From a virus, in the IMG/VR virus record IMGVR_UViG_3300022602_002877, positions 57,219-90,668 of that record: a stretch of DNA of 33,450 nucleotides. One strand, written 5' to 3'. Numbering within the stretch: the stretch's first letter is position 1; each line of letters begins with the position of its first letter. The notes under the pieces were generated by a model. The model saw only the letters and a list, made by a program, of their open reading frames with translations, had not been told where the DNA came from and searched no databases. Below, in pieces: positions 3,143-29,986 of the stretch. The position numbers were made by a program, and so were the translations under genes.

Positions 3143-3814
3143 ATGTTTTTACAAGTAGATCAATATTGTTTTATTAACCCGACTCCTATACTGATACTAA
3201 AATCAGATACGCCTGTTGTTACAAAAGAAAATATTAAGTATTTTCTAAATTTAGAAATGAGAACAGCAGGCGATTCTCCTGTTGACCTATCTGCTAAAGA
3301 TGGTGTACTAGAGTCTCCAGAGTTATCAAATATTAAAACCATAATGGACGAAGCAGTTAATTACTACGTTACAGAAGTAGTAGGAGTTAGTAATAAATTT
3401 AAATTGGTTCATTCTTGGTTAACTAAAAATGTCAAAGGTAGTTATCATCATAAACATTATCATCATAACATGATGTTAACAGCATTGGTGTATTTTAATG
3501 AAGAAGGAACCGAAGATTCTTTTTCTCCGTTGGTTTTTACTGGAGAAGGAGTAAAAAGAGTATTTCAAAAATTTCAATTTGAATTTAATATTATTAAAGA
3601 AAATGATATTAATGCTAATTCATATACAATAAATCCTACAACAAATCATATTATTATATTTCCTGGATGGATAGAACACGAAGTTCCAACTAATACAAAA
3701 GAAAAAACACGTTATTCAGTAGGAGGCAATTATTTCATAAATGACTTTTTAGGTAAAGAAAATAATTACGATTCAATTAACATAGACGTTTCAAGTAAAA
3801 GACTTAACAAATGA
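3143..3814 (+). CDS. Putative 2OG-Fe(II) oxygenase (TIGR02466-like), 223 aa
   Basis: A GTG at 3116 could extend the frame, but it overlaps the preceding gene; ATG 3143, just after that gene's stop, is chosen. The likely double-stranded beta-helix core contains a His cluster after [10 protein letters not shown] (His 102-108, Asn109), a distal His179 in [10 protein letters not shown], and Arg190 in RYSVGG. This order (HxH..N, FPxWxxHxV, RxSxxxN) matches the putative oxygenase family known as TIGR02466. Such enzymes use iron and 2-oxoglutarate to hydroxylate a substrate, which cannot be named here. No clear ribosome binding site is seen before 3143. The stop overlaps clpP by four bases. Confidence 0.75.
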
Positions 3815-4425
3815 AAGATAACATGATTACAAGCAATTTAGTACCAATGGTAATTGAAAAGACCAGTCAGGGTGAACGTGCGTTTGATATTTTTAGTAGA
3901 TTATTAAATGAACGCATTGTATTTTTAAACGGACCTGTAGATGACTGGAGTGCCAATTTAGTGGTAGCACAGATGTTACATTTAGAAAGTCAAGACTCAG
4001 ATAAAGATATTCACTTTTATATTAACAGTCCCGGTGGTGTTGTTACCGCTGGAATGAGCATTTATGATGTAATGCAATTTATTAAACCAGATGTGGCAAC
4101 TTATGTTATGGGACAGGCCTGTAGTATGGGTTCCTTGTTAGCACAGGCAGGTGCTGCAGGTAAACGGTTTATGTTGCCCAACGCTCGTCACATGATTCAT
4201 CAACCTAGTGGTGGTGCTGGCGGACAGGCCACAGATATGGAAATTCAAGTTAAAGAAATATTAAAAATGAAACAGACACTTACACAGATTTATGTTAATC
4301 ATAATTCAAAAGGTAAGGCCTATGATGAGTTTCATGCCGCAATGGAACGTGACAATTTTATGAGTGCCGAAGAAGCATTGGCATTCGGATTAGTTGATCA
4401 AATTGTAGAAAAGCGTCCAGTATAA
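3811..4425 (+). CDS. clpP: ClpP ATP-dependent protease proteolytic subunit
   Basis: The 204-residue product aligns over its whole length with cellular ClpP, the serine peptidase that forms two heptameric rings and degrades proteins unfolded by ClpX or ClpA. The catalytic triad is visible: Ser105 in MGQACSMGS, His130 in MIHQPSGG and Asp181 in ERDNF. The oxyanion segment YINSPGG and the C-terminal FGLVDQIVE are conserved. It begins at the normal mature N-terminus ([11 protein letters not shown]), without a long propeptide. It is far closer to bacterial ClpP than to the ClpP-fold prohead proteases of lambdoid phages. No Clp ATPase is present in the window, so a host unfoldase would be needed. 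Confidence 0.95.
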
Positions 4426-7702: not shown

Positions 7703-8728
7703 ATGATTAAAAAAATTGGATTTGCATGTAAGTGGATAAATGATCCATCAGAAATAAAAGGCATGAAGGTAAATGCCGCTGATAGAGATATCAACGGACG
7801 TAGTACCACCATGCGATGGTTGCGTGAACATCCTGCCGAAGCCGAACAACGGCAGTGGGATATTATGAATCACAATGCAGCCGCGGCGTTAAAATTAATC
7901 GAACGTGTAGGCAGTCTAGAACCACATCTGCGTATGGTTCGTATTGGTTCAGAAATGCTACAGGGCTATACTGAAAAAGATTGGAAGGACTGGTGGCAAC
8001 GGCAAGAGATACAAGATCACTGTGAGCGGATATTTGCTCCAGTAGGCGAGGCGGCTCGACGTTTGGGTGTACGCATCAGTTTCCATCCCGGCCAGTTCTG
8101 TGTGTTGGCCAGTGAAAATCCCGGCATTGTGGAACGTAGCATTGAAGAATTTGAGTATCATGCTGACATGGCTCGTTGGATGGGCTACGGCCGGACATTC
8201 CAGGACATGAAGATCAATGTACACATTTCTGGCAAACGAGGTCCTGCTGGCCTGCGTGAAACTTATCAAAAGTTATCGCCCGAAGCCCGCAACTGTATCA
8301 CTATCGAAAACGAAGAAAACTCATGGGGTCTAAATGATTGTCTTGAACTTACCAACTTACTTCCTATTGTTTTGGACATTCACCACCATTGGATTAGGGA
8401 AGGTGAATACATCGATCCACAGGATAGTCGAGTCCGACAAGTGGTTGATAGCTGGCGCGGTCGCCGTCCCACTATGCATTACAGCGTCAGTCGCGAAGAC
8501 CTACTTGTGGATCACAATCCCGTAATAATGCCAGATTATGCTCAACTGCTAGCAGAAGGCTACAAAAAACAAAAACTTCGGGCCCACAGTAATTTTATGT
8601 GGAACACCGAAGTTAATACATGGGCTTTACAATTCTTAGATCAGTTTGACATAATGGTCGAAGCAAAGGCTAAGAATTTGGCCAGTTTTGCTCTTGCCGA
8701 GCAGGCCAAAGAATTAAACCTTCTTTGA
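7703..8728 (+). CDS. uvsE: UV damage endonuclease UvdE/UVDE
   Basis: The 341-residue product carries the UvdE TIM-barrel motifs: FHPGQFCVLAS (His128), INVHISGKRG (His174), ITIENEE (Glu202) and LDIHHHW (Asp225, His227-228), which supply the metal site. UvdE nicks DNA 5' of pyrimidine dimers and other lesions and starts excision repair. Light-exposed aquatic phages often carry repair enzymes. ATG 7703 follows the previous stop directly. The 3' end overlaps the convergent minus-strand gene by 15 bases. Codon use in parts is visibly more GC-rich than in neighbours, for example around 8030-8300, which may indicate acquisition from a bacterial source. Confidence 0.93.
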   Translation: MIKKIGFACKWINDPSEIKGMKVNAADRDINGRSTTMRWLREHPAEAEQRQWDIMNHNAAAALKLIERVGSLEPHLRMVRIGSEMLQGYTEKDWKDWWQRQEIQDHCERIFAPVGEAARRLGVRISFHPGQFCVLASENPGIVERSIEEFEYHADMARWMGYGRTFQDMKINVHISGKRGPAGLRETYQKLSPEARNCITIENEENSWGLNDCLELTNLLPIVLDIHHHWIREGEYIDPQDSRVRQVVDSWRGRRPTMHYSVSREDLLVDHNPVIMPDYAQLLAEGYKKQKLRAHSNFMWNTEVNTWALQFLDQFDIMVEAKAKNLASFALAEQAKELNLL

Positions 8729-9099: not shown

Positions 9100-9666
9100 A
9101 TGAAAAGTTTAACAGAATTAAAACAGTTGGTTGTCGAAGCTGAAAATAAAAAAGATAAACTAACTTTAGAACCTTTACCATATGGTAAAGAGGATTTAGC
9201 ACCTGTTTTAAGTAAGGCAGAAATTAATTATCACTATGGCAAACTGGCACAGGGATACGTTGATCGCTATAATAAAGGCGAAGGAGACCCAGAATTTAAT
9301 CGTGCTGGTGCTTTTTTACACAATATTTTCTTTCCACAATTGACTACTCCAAAATCAAGCAATAGGCCCTTCGGTGCCAGTGCTGAATTTGTAGAAAAAT
9401 ATTTTGGAGATTTAGACAAATTTAAAACAGATGTTGAAACAGTGGCAATGAAAATACAGGGATCCGGATGGGTCTATTTGGCTCGAAACGGTCAAATTAA
9501 AACAATTACTAATCATGCTGTAAAGCAAGATATTGTACTGCTGATAGATTTCTGGGAACATAGTTGGGCATTGGACTACCAAGCAGACAAACAAAAATAC
9601 CTAAAAAATATATGGAGGATAATTAACTGGTCAGTTATTAACGATAGGTTAAATTTAGTAAAATAA
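9100..9666 (+). CDS. Fe/Mn-family superoxide dismutase, 188 aa
   Basis: Superoxide dismutase converts superoxide to peroxide and oxygen. The metal ligands are all present: His45 in NYHYGKL, His74 in FLHNIFF, and Asp150 and His154 in DFWEHSW. GSGWVYLAR and the Tyr-containing HYGKxxxxY (Tyr53) are also conserved. Two family features differ: the usual His pair after HYGK is Leu49-Ala50, and the outer-sphere position usually Gln or Ala is TNHAV with His139. A His there is known in some cambialistic or archaeal SODs. It sits between divergent late promoters at the head of the fibre block, so a virion-associated or late role is plausible. Confidence 0.88.
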   Translation: MKSLTELKQLVVEAENKKDKLTLEPLPYGKEDLAPVLSKAEINYHYGKLAQGYVDRYNKGEGDPEFNRAGAFLHNIFFPQLTTPKSSNRPFGASAEFVEKYFGDLDKFKTDVETVAMKIQGSGWVYLARNGQIKTITNHAVKQDIVLLIDFWEHSWALDYQADKQKYLKNIWRIINWSVINDRLNLVK

Positions 9667-9696: not shown

Positions 9697-9918
9697 ATGT
9701 CTAATAAGCCCACAGCAGAATTTATGGTAGAAGAACTACCGTTTGAAGATGAATCTAGTATTGATGACTTTGCGTTTGTTATTGGTCCAGATGGAGAATT
9801 AAAAAGCATGATTATCCCCGAACATTTAATGGATGATCCACCAGAAGAAGTACAATTAATATTAAGATTGTTTGGAATTGATGATCTAAATACCCTAGAC
9901 GATCGAATTTTACATTAA
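9697..9918 (+). CDS. Small acidic protein, 73 aa, unknown
   Basis: AGGAG lies seven bases before ATG 9697. The product is strongly acidic (for example VEELPFEDESSIDDFAF) with a predicted C-terminal helix (PPEEVQLILRLFGIDDLNTL). No family was recognised. It lies between SOD and the large protease-fibre gene. A small UCCU-UUAU-AGGA hairpin could involve its ribosome binding site, but with only four pairs this is weak. Confidence 0.75.
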   Translation: MSNKPTAEFMVEELPFEDESSIDDFAFVIGPDGELKSMIIPEHLMDDPPEEVQLILRLFGIDDLNTLDDRILH

Positions 9919-9962: not shown

Positions 9963-12900
9963 ATGTTTCAGCCTTTGCCAGTAAGTTTACCAGACAATGC
10001 TACACTTTCAGCATTAGATCCGGGTGAACAAATACCATTTGTTATTACAGTCCAACGTCCAGAATCTTTAAAAGATTTTGTTGATACTGTTATTTCTGGG
10101 CAGAACCAATATCTTTCTAGAGAAGAATTTAATACACGATTTTCGGCAACTGATGAAGATATTGCCGCGGTTGTAAATTATGCTACCAGTAATGGATTAA
10201 CTGTTATTAGTACACATGCTCCTAGCGCACATATAGAACTAACTGGATCTGCTGGCACAATTAACAGTTTGTTTGGTATAACACTACAAAATGTCACAAC
10301 ACCAAATGGAACTTTTAGAAGTTGGACTGGAGATGTTGAGGTTTCACCGGATGTAAACAACATAATTGAACATATTGCAGGGCTAGATACTCTACCGCCT
10401 TATACAAAAAAACTTTCTGAGTTCAGTATAACCAACTCTACTCCGGCCGGATTGCGAGCAATAACACCAATTCAAGCTGCAACTGCTTATCAATTTCCCA
10501 GTTCTAGTGCTGCCGGACAATGTATTGGTATTATCGAGTACGGAGGCGGATACACACAACAAAACTTGACTTCAAGTTTTAGTGCTATTGGATTAACAAA
10601 TCCTACAACTGTTGATGTGTCGGTAGGCGGTTATACAAATACTCCAGATAATAATATATATGGGTATTGTCCAGAAGTTATGTTGGACATATTTTGCGCT
10701 GGCGCTGTTGCTCCCAGCGCAACATTGGCAGTATATTTTGGAAATATTAATTTTCTTAACGCAGGACCAACATGGGGAGCCGCGTTAAATGCCGCTATCC
10801 ATGACAGTGTAAATAATCCTAGTGTTTTAAGTGTAAGTTACGGAGCAGGAGAAATTAGTTCTTTCTGGGGACCTACTGCCATATCTTATGTTGATGACAT
10901 ATTAATGCAATCTGTTGCATTAGGTATCACAGTATGTGTTTCATCGGGCGACCAAGGATCTATATGGTCAGGGGATAGAGGAACAACTCCAGATACTGAA
11001 TATCCAGGATCAAGCCCTTACGTATTGTGTATAGGTGGAACTACCTTAGAGTTGAATACTGACAATACAATTTATAGTGAAGTAACTTGGGGGACATATA
11101 GTACACCACCAGGTGGAGATGGAACTGGTGGCGGAATAAGTCAATACGACAACTCATTACCTTCATGGCAGTCAGGATTAACTTATACTCCTTATACATA
11201 TCCTACTGGCGCAGGATCTGCTACTTCACTAACATCGCGTGGTGTGCCTGATGTTTCAGCAAATGCTGATCCAAGTTCTGGATATCAATTTTATTGGGGA
11301 ACTGGAAATACTTTTGCCCAATATGGTGGTACTAGTGCTGCCGCTCCTGTGTGGGCTGGATTTATTGCAAGATTAAATGCCATAACAGGAACCAGATTAG
11401 GATTTGCCAATACGCTGTTTTATTCTAACCCTAATGTATTTCGTGATATTACTGTAGGTAATAACGCAAACTATATTAACAACGGATATGCTGCCACTCC
11501 GGGATGGGACGCATGTACAGGACTAGGTACTCCTATCGGTACTTCTATATTAGGATTATTAACTGGTGGCGGTGGTGGCGGTGGTGGCGGTGGTGAATCA
11601 TCTGATGATACGTTAAGTAATTTAACATTATCAATTGGCGGATTATCATACACAGGAGCAACATCATACAGTCTTTCAGTTTCCAACGATGTAACATCAT
11701 TAACCGTTACTCCTACTGTAAATGAAAGTCATGCTACTGTCACTGTTAACGGAACTCCTGTTACATCAGGTTCGCCATCGGGCACAATTAATTTAAGTGT
11801 TGGTAACAATACAATTATTGTTGCAGTTACAGCACAAAATAGTGCAACATTAACTTATATAATTACCATTAATAGATTAGGAGTATCATTATCTAGCGAT
11901 GATACATTAAGTAATTTAACAATCTCATCAGGTAATTTAACATATACAGGAGCAACTTCTTATAATGTATCAGTTGAATGGAATGTATCATCAGTAACCG
12001 TTACTCCTACAGTAAATGAAAGTCACGCAACCGTTACTGTTAATGGTAACGCAGTCCTTTCTGGACAACCATCGGGTTCTATTAATTTAAATCACGGCAA
12101 TAATACAGTTACCATTGTAGTTACCGCACAAGATAGTTCAACAAAAACTTATACAATCATAGTTAATAGAGCACCAGTATCTAATGATGCCACATTAAAT
12201 TCATTAACAATATCAAGTGGTACATTATCTCCTGGGTTCGATAGTAATACAATTTCATATACTGATTCTGTTGCTAATAATGTACTATCGGTAACAGTTA
12301 CTCCACTGGCAAATAATCCAACATCTACTATTAAAGTAAATGGTGTATCAGTCGCAACTGGCACAGCATCTCAAACAATTGTTTTAACCCCTGGCCCTAA
12401 TACAATTACTATTATTGTAACTGCTGGAGATGGTACAACCGTAAAAACTTATACCATAACAGTAACAAGAGCATATTCTAGTGATGCTACTTTAAGTAAT
12501 TTAATAATTTCTTCAGGTACACTAATTCCTACATTTAATTCAAGTACAACATCCTATACAGGTACGGTAAATGTATCATCTATAACTGTTACACCTACTG
12601 TAAATGAAAGTCATGCAACTGTTACAGTTAATGGTACTAGCGTGTTATCTGGTTCAATATCAAAGACAATAGTTTTAGTAATAGGTATTAATACCATTAT
12701 AGTTGTTGTAACAGCACAAGATAGTACAACAAAAACTTATACAATTGCATTGACTAGATTAACTTCTAACGATGCTACATTATCCAATATATTAGTACCA
12801 TCTTATGGATTGTTGTCTCCTGCGTTCAATTCATTAACTCCAAGATATACAATTATAATACCAAACAATTACTCATCAGTTATATTTTCAGTATTGTCTA

Positions 12901-13946
12901 CTCAACCAGATTCTACAATTAAAATTAATGGAAATACTGTAGTGTCAGGATCGCCATTTGGTGTGTATCCTATCCCGGTAGGATCACAATCTGTAACAGT
13001 TGTTGTAACAGCACCAGATCGTGTAACAACAAAAACATATAGTTTAACAATTACCAGAGAAGGTGGCGGTAACAATGATGCGAAATTAAATGGATTATTT
13101 GTATCTGCTGGAACTCTTGTTCCATTATTCAGCGGTAATGTTCATTCGTATTCAGATACTGTTAATAATGAAATAGAATCAATAACGGTTACACCAATAC
13201 AAAATGATTTAAACGCATTAACCACAGTCAATGGTAATATAACTTCAAATAATCAACCGTCAACTCCTATTTCATTAAGTACAGGAACAACATCAATTAT
13301 GGTTGTAATACGTTCATTAGATTTAACTACAACAAATACATATAAAATAAGTGTATTTAGAGAACCGCCTAATGTTCAAACAACAAAGTATACACAGATT
13401 TATGCCACACCGTTTTTATCAGAGAACAGTAGACAATTATATCATACTTTTATTACCAATACAAATATATTCCCAACAAAGGTACTATATAAACAAACTG
13501 ACCCATCTTTTGGATTACAGTATGATATTCGAGTTTATTTAGAATATGCTATCCAAGAATTAAACTATTCACAATATAATATAGGAACAATTCGTAAACA
13601 ACAACTATTGTTTGGAGTTATTAAAGTATTATCAACTGCTTTATACGATATGGTATACGTAACCGTAGTAGATAATACCAACATATTAAGTACTTTGCGT
13701 ACATCTTTAGAAAATATGCAGGTATCTAATACTGCTACAGTTGCTGTTAATAAAGATTTTGCCAACATTGTACCTGATCAAAACTTTGTTACATTGTGCT
13801 ACACACAACCAGGACAGGGAAATTATGTTAGATCAAGAATTTTATCATCTAACTTTAATTTTAATCAATTGAATTTTACAATCGACAGAGTTATCATAGC
13901 CAGTACACTTGATGACGGGCTACCTAAATACGTGTTCTTGAGTTGA
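9963..13946 (+). CDS. Sedolisin (S53) protease fused to six cadherin-like repeats; probable fibre protein
   Basis: 1327 residues. Residues 1-150 resemble the pro-kumamolisin activation domain (PFVITVQRPESL, then a TRF...YATSNGL segment). Residues 160-535 are a full sedolisin catalytic domain: Glu238 and Asp242 in PEVMLDIF, oxyanion Asp330 in SSGDQG, Ser458 in GGTSAAAPVW, and the calcium loop FRDITVGN with GWDACTGLG. A poly-Gly linker (535-543) leads to six repeats of about 95 residues (near 546, 643, 739, 838, 934, 1036), each with a DATLSNL start and a VTVTP..ATVTVNG core typical of the cadherin-like beta-sandwich family. A separate C-terminal domain (1140-1327) is not recognised. There is no signal peptide. 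It heads the fibre block and has a late promoter, so it may be a virion protease-adhesin. Confidence 0.9.
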   Translation: MFQPLPVSLPDNATLSALDPGEQIPFVITVQRPESLKDFVDTVISGQNQYLSREEFNTRFSATDEDIAAVVNYATSNGLTVISTHAPSAHIELTGSAGTINSLFGITLQNVTTPNGTFRSWTGDVEVSPDVNNIIEHIAGLDTLPPYTKKLSEFSITNSTPAGLRAITPIQAATAYQFPSSSAAGQCIGIIEYGGGYTQQNLTSSFSAIGLTNPTTVDVSVGGYTNTPDNNIYGYCPEVMLDIFCAGAVAPSATLAVYFGNINFLNAGPTWGAALNAAIHDSVNNPSVLSVSYGAGEISSFWGPTAISYVDDILMQSVALGITVCVSSGDQGSIWSGDRGTTPDTEYPGSSPYVLCIGGTTLELNTDNTIYSEVTWGTYSTPPGGDGTGGGISQYDNSLPSWQSGLTYTPYTYPTGAGSATSLTSRGVPDVSANADPSSGYQFYWGTGNTFAQYGGTSAAAPVWAGFIARLNAITGTRLGFANTLFYSNPNVFRDITVGNNANYINNGYAATPGWDACTGLGTPIGTSILGLLTGGGGGGGGGGESSDDTLSNLTLSIGGLSYTGATSYSLSVSNDVTSLTVTPTVNESHATVTVNGTPVTSGSPSGTINLSVGNNTIIVAVTAQNSATLTYIITINRLGVSLSSDDTLSNLTISSGNLTYTGATSYNVSVEWNVSSVTVTPTVNESHATVTVNGNAVLSGQPSGSINLNHGNNTVTIVVTAQDSSTKTYTIIVNRAPVSNDATLNSLTISSGTLSPGFDSNTISYTDSVANNVLSVTVTPLANNPTSTIKVNGVSVATGTASQTIVLTPGPNTITIIVTAGDGTTVKTYTITVTRAYSSDATLSNLIISSGTLIPTFNSSTTSYTGTVNVSSITVTPTVNESHATVTVNGTSVLSGSISKTIVLVIGINTIIVVVTAQDSTTKTYTIALTRLTSNDATLSNILVPSYGLLSPAFNSLTPRYTIIIPNNYSSVIFSVLSTQPDSTIKINGNTVVSGSPFGVYPIPVGSQSVTVVVTAPDRVTTKTYSLTITREGGGNNDAKLNGLFVSAGTLVPLFSGNVHSYSDTVNNEIESITVTPIQNDLNALTTVNGNITSNNQPSTPISLSTGTTSIMVVIRSLDLTTTNTYKISVFREPPNVQTTKYTQIYATPFLSENSRQLYHTFITNTNIFPTKVLYKQTDPSFGLQYDIRVYLEYAIQELNYSQYNIGTIRKQQLLFGVIKVLSTALYDMVYVTVVDNTNILSTLRTSLENMQVSNTATVAVNKDFANIVPDQNFVTLCYTQPGQGNYVRSRILSSNFNFNQLNFTIDRVIIASTLDDGLPKYVFLS

Positions 13947-13971: not shown

Positions 13972-16164
13972 ATGACCACTCCTTATAATCCAGATTTTAA
14001 TACACTCCCTAGTTTAATTAGTCCTACATCGGATACCTTGTTTATCGTCCAAGATAAATCTGTGGTACAATCTTTGACTGTAGCAAGAGCGGCAACACTA
14101 TTAAACACACGCGGTGCTGCCGGACCACAGGGCCCTAAAGGAGCTCAAGGACCACAAGGGCCAAGTGGCCCACAAGGTAATTTAGGTCCACAAGGTCCAA
14201 GTGGTCCATCGGGCCCTATAGGAGCAAACGGTGTAAGTGGTCCAAGTGGCGCACCGAGCAATGTAAGTGGTCCTAGTGGTCCTAGTGGGGCACACGGAGT
14301 ATCAGGACCAAGTGGACCTTGTGGTCCACAGGGTAATCAAGGATTTGTTGGACCAAGCGGTCCTAGTGGAGTACGAGGAGCATCAGGACCAAGTGGGCCA
14401 AGTGGAGCACCTGGTCCAAGTGGCCCAGCGGGAAATTCAGGAAATCCTGGAGCAGATAGTAGCGTTTCTGGGCCACTTGGTCCAAGTGGCCCAAGCGGCA
14501 GTCAAGGTAGTTCTGGACCAAGTGGTCCATCTGGTCCTCAAGGACTTCCGGGATCTCAAGGAAATATAGGACCAAGTGGCCCTAGTGGTCCTAGTGGCGC
14601 TGATAGTATGGTTGCAGGGCCAAGCGGATCGAGCGGACCTAGTGGACCATCAGGACCAAGTGGAGCACCAAGTAATGTAAGCGGTCCAATCGGATCAAGT
14701 GGTCCAAGTGGCCCTAGCGGTCCAAGTGGTACACAAGGTAACCCAAGTAATGTATCAGGGCCAAGCGGACCTAGTGGTCCTAGTGGTCCGGCAAGTAATC
14801 TAAGTGGTCCTAGTGGATCACAGGGATTATCAGGTCCTAGTGGAGCCAAGGGTGACGCTGGTTCTCAAGGTAACCCTGGAGTATCAGGACCTTCGGGTCC
14901 TAGCGGGCCAAGTGGTCCTAGTGGCCCATCAAGTAATGTAAGTGGCCCTAGCGGTCCAGCAGGTCCTAGTGGTCCTAGTGGCGCACCAAGCAATATAAGT
15001 GGCCCTAGCGGACCTAGTGGTCCATTAGGACTACAGGGAGTATCTGGTCCTCAAGGTAATCAAGGTGCCCAAGGCAATCCTGGACCAAGTGGTCCAAGTG
15101 GAGTAAGTGGTCCAAGTGGCGCACCAAGCAATATAAGTGGTCCCAGTGGTCCTAGTGGAGTAAGTGGTCCTAGCGGTGCTGTAAGTAATGTAAGTGGTCC
15201 TACTGGACCCAGTGGACCAAGCGGGGCACAAGGGTTACAAGGCAATCAAGGAACTCAGGGAAATCAAGGAACTCAAGGATTACAAGGCAATACCGGCCCA
15301 AGTGGTCCAAGTGGTCCAAGTGGTGCTGCAAGCAATGTAAGTGGTCCATCAGGTCCAAGTGGTCCAAGTGGTGCTGCAAGCAATGTAAGTGGTCCATCAG
15401 GTCCAAGTGGTGTTCGCGGTCCACAAGGACCAAGTGGACCAAGTGGTAGTCCAGGTAATAATGGTAACAATGGTGCTAATGGCCCACAAGGACCAAGTGG
15501 ACCAAGTGGACCACAAGGCAATCAAGGACCACAAGGAAATCCAGGTAATAATGGTAACAATGGTGCTAATGGACCACAAGGACCAAGTGGCCCTAGCGGA
15601 CCACAAGGAAATCCAGGTAATACAGGAGCTCAGGGAAATCAAGGAGCTCAGGGAAATCAAGGAGCTCAGGGAAATCAAGGAGCTCAGGGAAATCAAGGAG
15701 CTCAGGGAAATCAAGGACCAAGTGGACCAAGTGGTCCAAGTGGTCCTGGAATACAAACATCAAGCAATACACAACTAAATTCATTAGGTGTAGGAACAGC
15801 GGCCTCAACTACAGCAGGTGAAATACGTGCTACTGCCAACATCACTGCCTACTATTCCTCTGATGTAGCATTCAAAGAAAACATACGCCCAATTCCTGAT
15901 GCGTTAGAAAGTGTGGCAGCAATTAGTGGCAAGTTGTTTGACTGGAAAGACAGTTATATTCAAGCACACGGTGGTGAGGATGGATATTTTATACAGAAAG
16001 CTGACTTTGGTGTTATCGCACAAGATGTACTTAAAAACTTCCCGCTAGCAGTAAGAACAAGACCTGATGGTTCATTGGCCGTTGATTATGAAAAATTAAG
16101 TGCTTTGGCTTTTGCGGCCATTGCTGAGTTAAAAATAAAAATTAATAAATTAGAAGGCAAATAA
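13972..16164 (+). CDS. Collagen-like tail fibre with S74 autocleaving chaperone domain
   Basis: 730 residues. Residues 1-45 form an N-terminal anchor also found in the protein at 17808 ([14 protein letters not shown], then [10 protein letters not shown] and LLNTRG). Residues 46 to about 595 are Gly-X-Y repeats dominated by GPSG, interrupted at intervals by a short SN[VI]S insert. Residues 629-730 are a peptidase S74 intramolecular chaperone: Ser630 and Lys635 in SSDVAFKEN have the five-residue spacing of the catalytic dyad of endosialidase-type tailspikes, and [10 protein letters not shown] and [12 protein letters not shown] follow. In that family the chaperone trimerises the fibre and then cuts itself off just before the Ser. 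Receptor binding is a likely role. Five perfect 18-base tandem repeats are present near the end of the collagen part. Confidence 0.92.
15625..15714 (+). repeat. Five perfect 18-bp tandem repeats
   Basis: The unit GGAGCTCAGGGAAATCAA is repeated at 15625, 15643, 15661, 15679 and 15697 without a mismatch and encodes two Gly-X-Y triplets. Elsewhere the collagen-like DNA uses mixed codons, so these identical copies look like a recent expansion. They would be prone to slippage and fibre-length change. Confidence 0.95.
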
Positions 16165-17807: not shown

Positions 17808-20800
17808 ATGACATACAATCCCGATTTTGATAATATTCTTCCACTAACTAACCCCACAGAAGGGGATACTCTCTTTATCGTTTCTGATAAATCTATGGTT
17901 CAAACAATGACCGTAGACCGAGCAAGAACATTATTAAACACAAGAGGTGATACAGGTCCACAAGGACCTCAAGGACCAAGTGGTCCAAGCGGTGTACAGG
18001 GACCACAAGGCCCACAAGGAGTACAGGGACCGCAGGGAGTTCAAGGTCCTCAAGGACCTATTGGATTGTTAGGTCCTCAGGGACCACAAGGAGTACAAGG
18101 TCCTCAAGGACCAAGCGGTCCTCAGGGTCCGCAGGGACCAAGTGGTCCAAGTGGCGTTACTGGCCCTAGATATCTCGGAATCAGTACAAGTTCGTATGTT
18201 GTAAATGCCAACTTAACTTCTGCTCAATTAATTCCAAATGCAGTCAATACAACAATACAATTACAAAGCACAGTAGATCCTAGTAGTTGGTGGAACAACA
18301 GCAGTTATCAATTTTTGCCTACAATTGGCGGTTATTATAACATTGAAGTTTCTGTAGATTGGCAAACAGGAACTGGTTCTGGACAGATCAATGTACAGAT
18401 ACATAAAAATACCAATCAAGAATTGATATTACAAAATCAAGTTAACACTGTTATTAATCAATCCATAAGCGGAGCTGTTACTGTTTTCTTGAACGGTTCT
18501 ACTGATTATATTCAAATAACTGCGTATACAGATAGTGCTACTGGACAATATATTTCCAATGGCGGTGGTACTAAATTTTATGCTAGTTTAGTTCCACAAG
18601 GCGGTACTCCTGGACCTCAAGGTGTTAGAGGCGCAAGTGGTCCTAGTGGTCCTAGTGGTTCTACAACAGCATTTGATTTACAAGGCGGATCAACTGGATC
18701 TATTCCAATTCAATCAGCACCAAATATAACCTCGTTTATTGCTCCAGGACCAGCTGGATACTTATTACAAGCAAATGGTACCAGTGCTACCTGGGTAAGT
18801 ACTTCTAGTATTGGAGTAGGTGGAGGAAGCTCTAGTGCTAATACCATCTATATTAATTCGCTAACAAATAGTGATCCTACAATTTCTTATCCAACATTTG
18901 CCACAGCATATGGATCACCATTGCCATTGAAGATAAATCAAAAGATATCATACGAAGCTGATATTGGACTGTTAACTGTTCCTAGAACTTATTTAACTGG
19001 TGGAAATACCGCGGTAAGTACCAGTAGTGGAGATCTTGTTGTATTAGGCGGTGCCGGTATTGGCGGAACATTATATGCCCAAAAAGAAGTTGTGGCTTCA
19101 AATGTTAATGCTGTTAGTACAACAACAGGAGCATTACAGGTTATAGGCGGGGTTGGTGTAGGTGGTGACATTTACTTTGATGGAAATCTATATCAGCGTG
19201 GTGTACTATTCCAACCAGGTGGTCCTAGTGGTCCAAGTGGTGTAAGTGGTCCAAGTGGTGCCAGCGGCCCTAGTGGTCCAGCAAGTAATATATCAGGACC
19301 AAGTGGTCCAAGTGGCCCTAGCGGAGCTGTTGGAAATATTGGAGCATCTGGTCCGAGTGGCCCTAGTGGTCCAAGCGGTCCCCAAGGTGACAAGGGCGAT
19401 CAAGGTAATCCAGGTTTACAAAGTAATTTAAGTGGTCCAAGTGGCCCTAGTGGTCCAAGTGGCCCTAGCGGTCCTCCAAGTCTTGTTCCTGGACCAAGCG
19501 GTCCAAGTTTAAGTGGACCAAGCGGTCCAAGCGGTCCGGCAAGTAATCTAAGTGGTCCATCAGGTCCATCAGGTCCATCAGGTCCAAGTGGAGCACCAAG
19601 TAATGTATCAGGTCCATCGGGTCCAAGTTTAAGTGGTCCATCAGGCCCAAGTGGTCCAGCAAGTAATGTAAGTGGTCCATCAGGCCCAAGTGGTCCATCA
19701 GGCCCAAGTGGTCCATCAGGAGCCGCAAGTAATGCAAGTGGCCCAAGCGGTCCATCAGGTCCATCAGGTCCAAGTGGAGCACAAGGTAATCCAAGTAATG
19801 TTTCAGGGCCAAGCGGACCTAGTGGTCCATCAGGTCCAAGTGGAGCTCGCGGTCCACAAGGCCCATCGGGTCCAAGTGGAGCACAAGGTCTACAAGGTAA
19901 CCAAGGTAACCCAAGTAATGTATCAGGTCCAAGCGGTCCATCAGGACCGAGTGGAGCACAAGGTCTACAAGGTAACCAAGGTAACCCAAGTAATGTATCA
20001 GGTCCAAGCGGTCCACAAGGTCCAAGCGGTCCTCAAGGATTACCAGGCAATCAGGGAGTACAAGGACCACAGGGACTTCAAGGTAATCAAGGACCTCAAG
20101 GACCACAAGGCAGTCAAGGACCACAAGGTCCTGGTGCGGCGGCGCCAGTTAATACATATTTGCAATTTGCTGACGGAACTGGTGGAATTTTTGGTGCTAC
20201 AACCTATCCAGCAGGTAGCTCAAGTCCAACAGGTGGATTGACATGGAATAAAAGTACCTATACATTAACCTATAAGTATCCATCATCTGCTGGTACATTT
20301 ACTTTAGGAGCAGGTGCTACATTAACCAACGGATCAGGAACTACTTATAATGCTATTCTTGCTGTTGAAGCAACCGCCGCTAGTTATTTTGGAGCTCTTG
20401 TATCTAGCGCTAGTAATTCAGCACCAGGATTAGCAGTTGGTAATAGAGGAGGTGGTGGCCCAAGTGGAGCAAATGCCGCTGATTTCTATAGAACAAGAGG
20501 CGGAGTAACTTCTTATGGTGCCAATGCTTATAGAACCACAGTAAGTTTAGGCACCGATGGTAACGCAATTATAAGCCAATACTTCAATGATACCGGATCA
20601 TATCCCGTAACTCAAGTATTTGAAGCCAGCAGTCTAGTTGGTCTAGAAGCTCATAACCTTGTAACTAACAGTACCAATCCATTAACAATTGGACAATTGG
20701 CCACTCAAGTTGGAACCAATGAAGGAATAGGAGTTGTTGGTAATTTTTATCCACCAACATATCCAGCCTATCAACCTGGTGTAAGTTTTAGTGGTGGAGT

Positions 20801-21551
20801 TTATGATGGCGGTACCAATAGTCACAATGGCTATTATGGCGCAGAAAGTGTTGCTTTTAATTCAAGCGGATATGTGTTTAGTTTAACATATACCGGTTGT
20901 GCTGATATGGCTGGCGACTTTATGTATTTCAATCCAGCAGCCGCTGGTAATATCAATTTATCAGCACAAATTAATTTAGCAACCCAAGCTGGGTACGGTA
21001 GTTATATCACAGCAGGTAGTCACTATCCATTTACAGGATCACATGAAGTATTAACCGCGCCAAACCAAGGGCTGGAAATAGGAGATATTGTTGTTTGTAC
21101 AAATACTATTGCTAAAAAGGATATCAACAATGCGATGGTCACAGTAGTCAGATCATCTGCTCCAAACCAAAAATCTGTATTAGGTGTTGTATCATTACTC
21201 AATATCGATAAATCTAAAACACTTCCTACATCATTGACAACATACATAGCAAATACCAGTACCAGTACCACAGCAACTCCTATAGCAATACTTGATCCAC
21301 AGTATCAAGCAGTGTACGATGCCAACGAATTAACAGGTATCAATGCGATTGGCGAAGGATTGATTAATGTGTGTGGCGAAGGTGGCAACATTGAAATTGG
21401 TGATTATATTACCAGTTCAAGCACACCTGGTAAAGGTATGAAGCAGGCAGATGACCTATTACATAACTACACAGTGGCCAAGGCTCGTGAAGCATACACA
21501 TTTACCGGCAATGAAATTGTACAGATTGCCTGTACATATCACTGCGGTTAA
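17808..21551 (+). CDS. Large collagen-like tail fibre protein, 1247 aa
   Basis: The N-terminal 45 residues match the anchor of the fibre at 13972 ([15 protein letters not shown], then [13 protein letters not shown] and LLNTRGDTG). A short Gly-X-Y segment leads to a jelly-roll-like domain (about residues 125-265: [19 protein letters not shown], then QINVQIHKN and [10 protein letters not shown]), similar in pattern to C1q-like heads. A fibre repeat ([20 protein letters not shown], then [19 protein letters not shown]) precedes a second, longer GPSG-rich collagen region to about residue 780. The C-terminal 460 residues are mostly beta, ending in a Gly-rich domain with [20 protein letters not shown] and [16 protein letters not shown], perhaps a trimerisation or chaperone domain. 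I see no S74 Ser-Lys dyad. Confidence 0.9.
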
Positions 21552-25956: not shown

Positions 25957-26337
25957 ATGAAGATACAAGGAACATTGAAACCACTGCGTGACACAGTATT
26001 TGTCACAGACATGGAATTTGGAATGCAAAAGACTAACTATGGATTATATATTCCAAGCGATGATGGTAAAAGTACAGGTATTCATCCACGATGGGGTCGT
26101 GTATGGGCAATAGGTCCCGAGCAAGATGAGATCAACGTTGGAGAATGGATCTTAATTGAACACGGTCGTTGGACACGTAGTTTTGAATACGAAAACGATG
26201 ATAAATCTATTACAGAATTACGTGTGGTAGAAAATAAATCTATTATGTTACGAGCCAAAGAAAAACCTAGTGATGTACAACGTAATGCTCCAGTCGGTGC
26301 TGGATCAAATGCCAATTTTAATATTCCAGGCATTTAA
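25957..26337 (+). CDS. GroES-like co-chaperonin (gp31-type), 126 aa
   Basis: Co-chaperonins cap the GroEL ring; in T4 gp31 replaces host GroES so that the capsid protein folds. The protein begins LKPLRDTVFVTDMEFG, followed by a flexible segment QKTNYGLYIPSDDGKSTG at the position of the GroEL-binding mobile loop, then HPRWGRVWAIGPEQDEINVGEWILIE, the beta-barrel with the VGEWI pattern of GroES (VGDxVlf). It is longer than bacterial GroES at the C-terminus. No chaperonin gene is in the window, so host GroEL would be the partner. A terminator follows at 26355. Confidence 0.82.
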   Translation: MKIQGTLKPLRDTVFVTDMEFGMQKTNYGLYIPSDDGKSTGIHPRWGRVWAIGPEQDEINVGEWILIEHGRWTRSFEYENDDKSITELRVVENKSIMLRAKEKPSDVQRNAPVGAGSNANFNIPGI

Positions 26338-28415: not shown

Positions 28416-29332
28416 AACAATTATGGACTGAGAGGTATAGACCAAAGACTGTCAGCGAATATGTATTCGTCGACGATGCTCAAAAGCGGCAAGTTGAATC
28501 ATGGATCAAGGAAGGCAGTATTCCACATCTATTGTTCAGCGGTGCAGCCGGAATAGGTAAAACTACCTTGGCCAAGGTATTGTTAAATGAACTTGGTGTT
28601 GAAGAATATGATTTGTTAGAGATCAATGCGTCACGCGAAAACAATGTAGAAACTGTACGTGACAAGATTGTTAACTTTGTACAGATGATGCCATTTGGTC
28701 CATTTAAATGTGTACTGTTAGATGAGGCTGATTACTTGACTCCCAACGCACAGGCTATACTGCGTGGCGTTATGGAAACATATTCCAGTACCAGTAGATT
28801 TATTCTAACCTGTAATTATCCTAATCGTATTATTCCAGCACTGCACAGTCGCTGTCAAGGATTCCATGTATTAAAAACTGATCAAACAGAGTTTACTGCT
28901 AGAGCCGCTACAATTCTAGTAACCGAAGGTGTAGATTTTGATCTAGATATATTAGACACCTATGTTAAATTGAGTTATCCTGATCTACGTAAATGTATCA
29001 ATTTGTTACAACAAAATGTTGTAGATAACAAACTAATGGCGCCGACTGCCGGTGATAACGAATCTACCGATTACAAAATTGAAATGGTAGAATTGTTCAA
29101 GGCCGGAAACATACAAGGAGCACGGAAACTGTTATGCTCCAAAGCAAGACCAGAAGAAATGGAAGAAATCTATCGTTGGTGTTACGACAATATCAATTTG
29201 TTTGGCAAAGATGACGAAACTAAAGATTCAGCAATTATTATTATCAAACAAGGATTAGTAGATCATACCATCTGTGCCGACGCAGAAATAAATCTTAGTG
29301 CTACACTGGCCAAACTAGCAAGACTACAATAA
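28412..29332 (+). CDS. 44: Sliding clamp loader large subunit (gp44-like AAA+ ATPase)
   Basis: The 306-residue product has the RFC-like AAA+ core: Walker A GAAGIGKTT (residues 44-52), Walker B LLDEADYL (102-109), sensor-1 Asn135 in TCNYPN, and the arginine-finger SRC box in ALHSRCQGF. The N-terminal LWTERYRPKTVSEY is typical of clamp loaders. In T4, gp44 forms a 4:1 complex with gp62 and loads the gp45 clamp on DNA. The usual partner gp62 does not follow here; instead the stop is overlapped by an antisense homing endonuclease gene. ATG 28412 overlaps the previous stop. Confidence 0.95.
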   Translation: MKQLWTERYRPKTVSEYVFVDDAQKRQVESWIKEGSIPHLLFSGAAGIGKTTLAKVLLNELGVEEYDLLEINASRENNVETVRDKIVNFVQMMPFGPFKCVLLDEADYLTPNAQAILRGVMETYSSTSRFILTCNYPNRIIPALHSRCQGFHVLKTDQTEFTARAATILVTEGVDFDLDILDTYVKLSYPDLRKCINLLQQNVVDNKLMAPTAGDNESTDYKIEMVELFKAGNIQGARKLLCSKARPEEMEEIYRWCYDNINLFGKDDETKDSAIIIIKQGLVDHTICADAEINLSATLAKLARLQ

Positions 29333-29902
29333 CTTGCAGTTATCAAAGTGATGTCTTATCATTGCAGGCTTGCCTCCATCTTTCCCACAATGGGGGCAAG
29401 TTATAACTGGCTTCAATACCCCAGTTTGTTTAGCCTTTCGTTTAATATTTGATTCTTCAGTTACTGGAATTCCTTTATTCCACGCTTTCATTCCTTTAAG
29501 TTTCTTAGAAGCCTTTTGTTTAGCATCGCCGGTCATAGGAATTCCTCTGTTCCATGCAACTGTTCCTTTGGTAGGACTTACTCTGCCTTTGAATCTTTGA
29601 CTAACACTCTTTTTGAATTCTTCAGAGCGAATAGCACCAGACGCACCATCTCCGCCATCAGTCCTGTTATAGAGTATACCTGTTCCTAGATCTTTTCTTC
29701 CGTACCATCTTATCATCCTACGCTCAATAGCTAATGCTCCAAGATCAGTAAGATTCTTTTCTAAATATACTATTCTAGATCGGTCTTTTGGGGGTTTAAC
29801 AAAGTGTTCTTTTGAACGGGCACGATAACCTTGCCCTTTGCCTATGTAATAGGGTGTGCCATCTTTTCGTAAGTAGGCATAAACGTAGTAGTGTAAATAC
29901 AT
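29324..29902 (-). CDS. GIY-YIG homing endonuclease with NUMOD-like repeats, 192 aa
   Basis: The catalytic domain reads YVYAYLRKDGTPYYIGKGQG (the YVY...YIG form of the signature), with candidate Arg27 or Arg29 and catalytic Glu60 in AIERRMIRWYG. NUMOD3-like DNA-binding repeats follow around residues 92-150 (SVSQRFKGR, then AWNRGIP and AWNKGIP). The end has a zinc-finger-like CPHCGKDG with a distal HHFDNC (Cys169, Cys172, His184, Cys189). Free-standing enzymes of this kind cut a phage locus and spread themselves. The gene is antisense and overlaps the last nine bases of the clamp loader gene. No intron or intein is seen in its neighbours. Confidence 0.88.
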   Translation of the reverse strand: MYLHYYVYAYLRKDGTPYYIGKGQGYRARSKEHFVKPPKDRSRIVYLEKNLTDLGALAIERRMIRWYGRKDLGTGILYNRTDGGDGASGAIRSEEFKKSVSQRFKGRVSPTKGTVAWNRGIPMTGDAKQKASKKLKGMKAWNKGIPVTEESNIKRKAKQTGVLKPVITCPHCGKDGGKPAMIRHHFDNCKLL

Positions 29903-29986
29903 TGCTGATAGTTCCTTGTAAACTGTTAGAGAGGGTGGATGCTTCCAACATCGCGATCCTCATTTTTATTTATAGTTAAAATAACA

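Follow-up and report, generated by a model that had tools for sequence, protein, structure and literature searches.

A phage sedolisin joined to a cadherin-like stalk in a fibre block: a probable virion-borne peptidase and its relatives behind fibre genes

The window analysed here, a stretch of 33,450 nucleotides at the end of a 90.7-kb viral contig (IMG/VR record IMGVR_UViG_3300022602_002877), encodes a sedolisin-stalk-anchor protein, P0001. On balance we favour the reading that P0001 is a sedolisin that is active and virion-borne, tethered by a stalk and cutting protein of the host surface. The ORF was located at positions 9963..13946 on the plus strand, with an ATG start and a product of 1327 aa, as first described. 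From the N-terminus, and all on the plus strand, it encodes a pro-kumamolisin activation domain (PF09286, residues 15-143, positions 10005..10391; Pfam E 1e-16, 61.9 bits against a cut-off of 23.5), an S53 catalytic domain (about residues 165-534, 10455..11564) delimited by alignment to 1t1e and 1gt9 and by residue conservation, a linker of ten glycines (residues 535-544, 11565..11594), six cadherin-like beta-sandwich domains of PF12733 (about residues 547-1130, 11601..13352, outer limits approximate), and a C-terminal domain (residues 1142-1327, 13386..13943). The Pfam search placed PF12733 on six stretches with an E-value of 2.9e-86. Both the poly-Gly join and the six cadherin-like repeats of the original prediction were recovered. 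The E-values exclude a chance origin of the domain matches.

The active site of P0001 is intact. In a phmmer search against the PDB, residues 28-533 aligned to the kumamolisin precursor 1t1e as the top match (E 1.2e-92), and sedolisin 1ga1 also matched (E 9e-21). In the 1t1e alignment, E238 (10674-10676), D242 (10686-10688), D330 (10950-10952) and S458 (11334-11336), encoded on the plus strand, fell on the kumamolisin catalytic residues, which are the Ser-Glu-Asp residues of S53 and the oxyanion Asp. The predicted calcium-loop residues D495, I496 and D516 also sit at kumamolisin positions. The PF09286 match supplies the N-terminal activation prodomain of S53 proteins. A complete S53 domain with prodomain, these four residues and calcium aspartates had been proposed, and the PF09286 match and the 1t1e alignment agree with it. 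Among the homologues, 21 distinct viral and 73 bacterial ones, the E and D residues never varied, nor did the oxyanion D and the nucleophile S wherever the sequence was complete. Judged from these residues, P0001 is very probably active as a peptidase. Kumamolisin (MEROPS S53, 1t1e) shares with P0001 the prodomain and catalytic domain and the catalytic and calcium residues; unlike kumamolisin, P0001 is phage-encoded and continues into a stalk and a phage C-terminal domain, and in the tree described below the viral members have a branch of their own.

Scans of IMG/VR gave sixteen sedolisin loci, and further ones were found by reading the gene behind the fibre tip domain described below; after removal of near-copies, the viral set held 21 sequences. 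Two different viral queries were run by tblastn against 50,697 GenBank phage records, and neither found a sedolisin. A tree was built from 18 of the viral sequences and 37 bacterial ones, and in it the viral sedolisins formed one side of a branch with support of 100; this shows separateness in the sample rather than a unique origin, because the bacterial sequences were picked as best matches. A remote match on a viral contig (L026:3014-4159), which has no prodomain and an odd motif order, was kept out of the tree and may be a bacterial sequence. The metagenome of one sedolisin contig (3300000553) comes from the hypolimnion of Trout Bog, a humic lake (PMC6344600). An acid-lake ecology would suit an acid peptidase.

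The C-terminal domain, which had been described as unknown, now has both homologues and a fold. It is homologous to the C-terminal part of phage He_PIG (Ig-like) repeat proteins encoded among fibre genes, with homologues in L009, L021 and L006, and in L011 and L021 a He_PIG protein with this domain is encoded one or two genes ahead of the fibre-sedolisin pair. Foldseek matched its predicted model (pLDDT 79) to 2H phosphoesterases such as Usb1 (TM 0.60, E 1.3e-4); the viral proteins that it resembled were phage Ig proteins and the proteinase of phage Atu_ph07 described below. H-x-T/S motifs were missing from the domain in P0001, with a single stray one among 13 relatives, which rules out an active phosphoesterase; the domain is therefore read as a structural module. 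It is a probable virion anchor, since the domain is constant while the N-terminal heads and stalks vary, although it could be distal rather than anchoring. The 2H-phosphoesterase-like fold without catalytic motifs was seen in 242 IMG/VR stretches (window positions 13386-13943 and relatives), and many phage proteins appear to have reused it as a structural element.

The gene adjoins fibre genes, as had been noted. A collagen-like fibre gene with a C-terminal S74 chaperone domain (13972..16164, plus strand) lies directly downstream, and a second collagen-like fibre gene of the block, identified with Pfam, lies at 17808..21551 on the plus strand. Upstream are a gene for an Fe/Mn superoxide dismutase (SOD; 9100..9666, plus strand) and a 73-aa ORF between it and the sedolisin gene (9697..9918, plus strand). 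The placement of a sedolisin on an adhesin stalk within a fibre block, probably on the virion, was supported, and the proposed late expression was not: the T4 late promoter TATAAATA was absent upstream of 9963, and the window as a whole had a single copy, at 29967 (minus strand), compared with an expectation of 4.7. No signal-peptide-like segment was found in residues 1-60 of P0001 (top 15-residue hydropathy 0.68), in agreement with the original prediction; its absence is uninformative because a phage leaves its host by lysis.

The window phage is a T4-superfamily myovirus, as judged from translations of its clamp loader, PhoH, ClpP, GroES-like co-chaperonin, collagen-like fibre and spanin-like genes. 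The clamp loader was closest to those of jumbo Pseudomonas phages of the PA5oct/Paride group (56%), and the contig therefore probably covers part of a larger genome. The collagen, UvdE and SOD genes suggested a eukaryotic giant virus, but the phage genes and this clamp loader ruled that out. Other genes of the window encode a UV endonuclease UvdE (PF03851, E 1.7e-31; 7703-8728), upstream of the SOD gene, a GroES/gp31-like co-chaperonin (25957-26337; phrog_931 head morphogenesis, E 1.5e-9) and, by sequence reading, a ClpP-like protease (3811-4425) and a GIY-YIG-like endonuclease (29324-29902, minus strand) between the clamp loader and PhoH. An ORF similar to this endonuclease was present near the sedolisin in L013:10243-11082 (minus strand).

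The joining of a peptidase to this C-terminal domain recurs. A freshwater phage (L192/L193) encodes a 1413-aa protein composed of a prodomain-less sedolisin, Ig/He_PIG repeats and the P0001-type C-terminal domain. The L192 locus is syntenic with the window, with a SOD (56% identical) in the same relative position, an ORF of 73-74 aa (54%), the fusion gene and, directly downstream of it, a collagen/S74 fibre. The L192 sedolisin paired in the tree with that of L118 (support 100) and not with that of the window, which implies two separate origins of the fusion or an exchange of the head. In the cultured jumbo phage Atu_ph07, AUZ95088.1, annotated 'extracellular serine proteinase precursor', contains an S8 peptidase (177-459), He_PIG repeats and the P0001-type C-terminal domain (958-1178, probability 99.6%). 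Like P0001 it combines a peptidase, an Ig-like stalk and the C-terminal domain, but its head is an S8 subtilase rather than S53; the He_PIG repeats of this protein and of L192 were absent from P0001 by Pfam, whose stalk consists of PF12733 repeats. AUZ95088.1 is gp329 by CDS count from the published gp288, gp292, gp293 and gp327. The Atu_ph07 cluster 'CDS 284-329', which its authors defined by virion mass spectrometry, is one of three that together account for most of the proteins they detected by ESI-MS/MS in PEG-purified phage (PMC6102473). As gp329 is the last gene of this cluster, we infer its detection in virions from the cluster boundary rather than from a peptide table.

Other complete viral loci encode the sedolisin as a protein on its own, usually of about 520-600 aa and of 411 aa in a prodomain-less group; it typically ends in the short tail RPxSGxxYPR, a motif common to the S53 and S8 members. 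In about 20 other distinct viral sequences the sedolisin gene starts 0-35 bp past a fibre or collagen-like gene, or overlaps it. The last 124 residues of that fibre gene product form a conserved tip domain, predicted as a jelly-roll (pLDDT 87), whose model showed generic similarity only when compared with the PDB, with no E-value below 0.001. Among 59 distinct tip-domain genes, 51 had a peptidase directly behind them (20 S53 and 31 S8, mostly with 1 bp between) and 8 did not; this proportion is biased upward and the sample partly circular, because the census was drawn mostly from the 80 best hits, out of more than 560, of an alignment that had itself been seeded from sedolisin-linked fibres. 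The S8 cases were absent from the seed alignment, and several subtilases in the slot were confirmed with Pfam. The cultured cyanophages S-CREM1 and S-H38 provide an independent check on the biased census, since in both the gene annotated 'baseplate wedge subunit and tail pin' is of fibre type and is followed at once by a subtilisin-like protease between baseplate genes. P0001 lacks the RPxSGxxYPR tail, and the tip domain was not found in the 90.7-kb contig; the window peptidase is related to the peptidases of the two-gene cassettes, and its arrangement is different.

If P0001 acts as we propose, the C-terminal domain would hold it on the virion, the stalk would consist of the six cadherin-like domains and the glycine linker, and the N-terminal peptidase would point outward as a tethered enzyme. 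The prodomain would hold the enzyme inactive until its removal, as expected from kumamolisin. On contact the enzyme would cut a host-surface protein, for example S-layer, outer-membrane or receptor proteins or a proteinaceous sheath. In most relatives, a separate peptidase encoded behind a jelly-roll-tip fibre gene may do the same job, probably held on by its short tail, while in P0001, L192 and Atu_ph07 the peptidase would act as part of a covalent fusion with another phage protein. The phage probably carries a protease of its own to the host surface, because the C-terminal domain occurs on fibre-like proteins of relatives. The virion reading is further supported by the sharing of this domain among fibre-block proteins, by the recurrent peptidase fusions of L192 and Atu_ph07, and by the dozens of phages whose free-standing sedolisin or subtilase gene comes immediately after a fibre gene. 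Gene order and domain content together make it quite probable that P0001 is a virion component. Given an active peptidase on the virion, the host surface would likely be its main target.

Location in a fibre block, taken alone, is also compatible with a maturation enzyme whose targets during assembly are the collagen-like fibres encoded next to it, or the enzyme itself. The direct contact of peptidase and fibre genes and the conserved fibre C-terminal domain beside the free-standing peptidases would fit such a role. However, the 8 tip-domain genes without a peptidase argue against it, S53 and S8 enzymes occupy the same slot despite their differing specificity, and the presumed substrate is missing from the window phage, which has the peptidase but no tip-domain copy in 90.7 kb of a fragmentary contig; we regard a maturation role as unlikely. 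A sedolisin that processes itself and is shed at lysis as a soluble peptidase, acting for example on debris or biofilm, appears more doubtful still. Sedolisins are typically soluble, and the glycine linker after the catalytic domain could serve as a cleavage site, but covalent fusions of different peptidases to a conserved phage domain are seen repeatedly, and the short peptidase forms keep their conserved tail.

Fibre tips often reuse enzyme folds, and the peptidase fold of P0001 might be a binding domain only; against this, E, D, D and S are invariant across the viral clade wherever covered, and we consider such a use very improbable. An intracellular protease directed at host proteins during infection would be in keeping with the missing signal peptide, but neither the six-domain stalk nor the fibre-block location fits it, and the structurally characterised sedolisins work at acid pH, which the cytoplasm does not offer; this is hardly credible.

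A surface-directed, stalk-tethered peptidase can be compared with several known systems. The 'subtilisin-like serine protease' of S-H38 and S-CREM1 is, like P0001, a clan SB peptidase in a baseplate/fibre region, and the fibre tip domain beside it is homologous to the one in the sedolisin phages. It differs in being a separate gene, S8 rather than S53, and without a stalk. In T4 and T2, the small tip adhesin gene gp38 lies directly behind the fibre gene gp37; the order is analogous, and it is an analogy only, as gp38 is an adhesin and not an enzyme and no homology was shown. Tailspike depolymerases are enzymes on phage fibres that breach a polysaccharide surface layer. P0001 would be analogous as a fibre-borne enzyme breaching a surface layer, but it is a peptidase rather than a glycosidase or lyase and has another fold.

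The whole viral sedolisin branch is tied to fibres. We give about even chances to the wider proposal that virion-borne proteolytic fibres are widespread among aquatic T4-like phages, with S53 and S8 heads (clan SB) interchangeable on tips or anchored stalks. In that case phages would routinely digest host-surface protein as they enter, much as they depolymerise polysaccharide, and virion-borne peptidases would let them breach protein barriers by enzyme, as they do sugar barriers. The peptidase family and annotated phage subtilases were already known. The open-licence papers searched held nothing relevant on a phage sedolisin or kumamolisin, its fusion to the anchor domain, cyanophage S8 peptidases or the exchange of S53 and S8. 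Cyanophage subtilases annotated 'protease' or 'hypothetical' now have a likely role, and the cultured phages S-H38, S-CREM1 and Atu_ph07 are systems in which a virion-borne peptidase can be tested.

The slot behind the fibre tip gene also contained variant ORFs. In L109:2122-2271 and L110:4347-4496 it held a 49-codon ORF in which the N-terminal and tail segments of a sedolisin-type protein remain but the catalytic core is gone; on its sequence we read it as a natural in-frame loss. In L168:4374-7496 it held an S8 peptidase with a large extra N-terminal esterase-like insertion before the subtilase domain.
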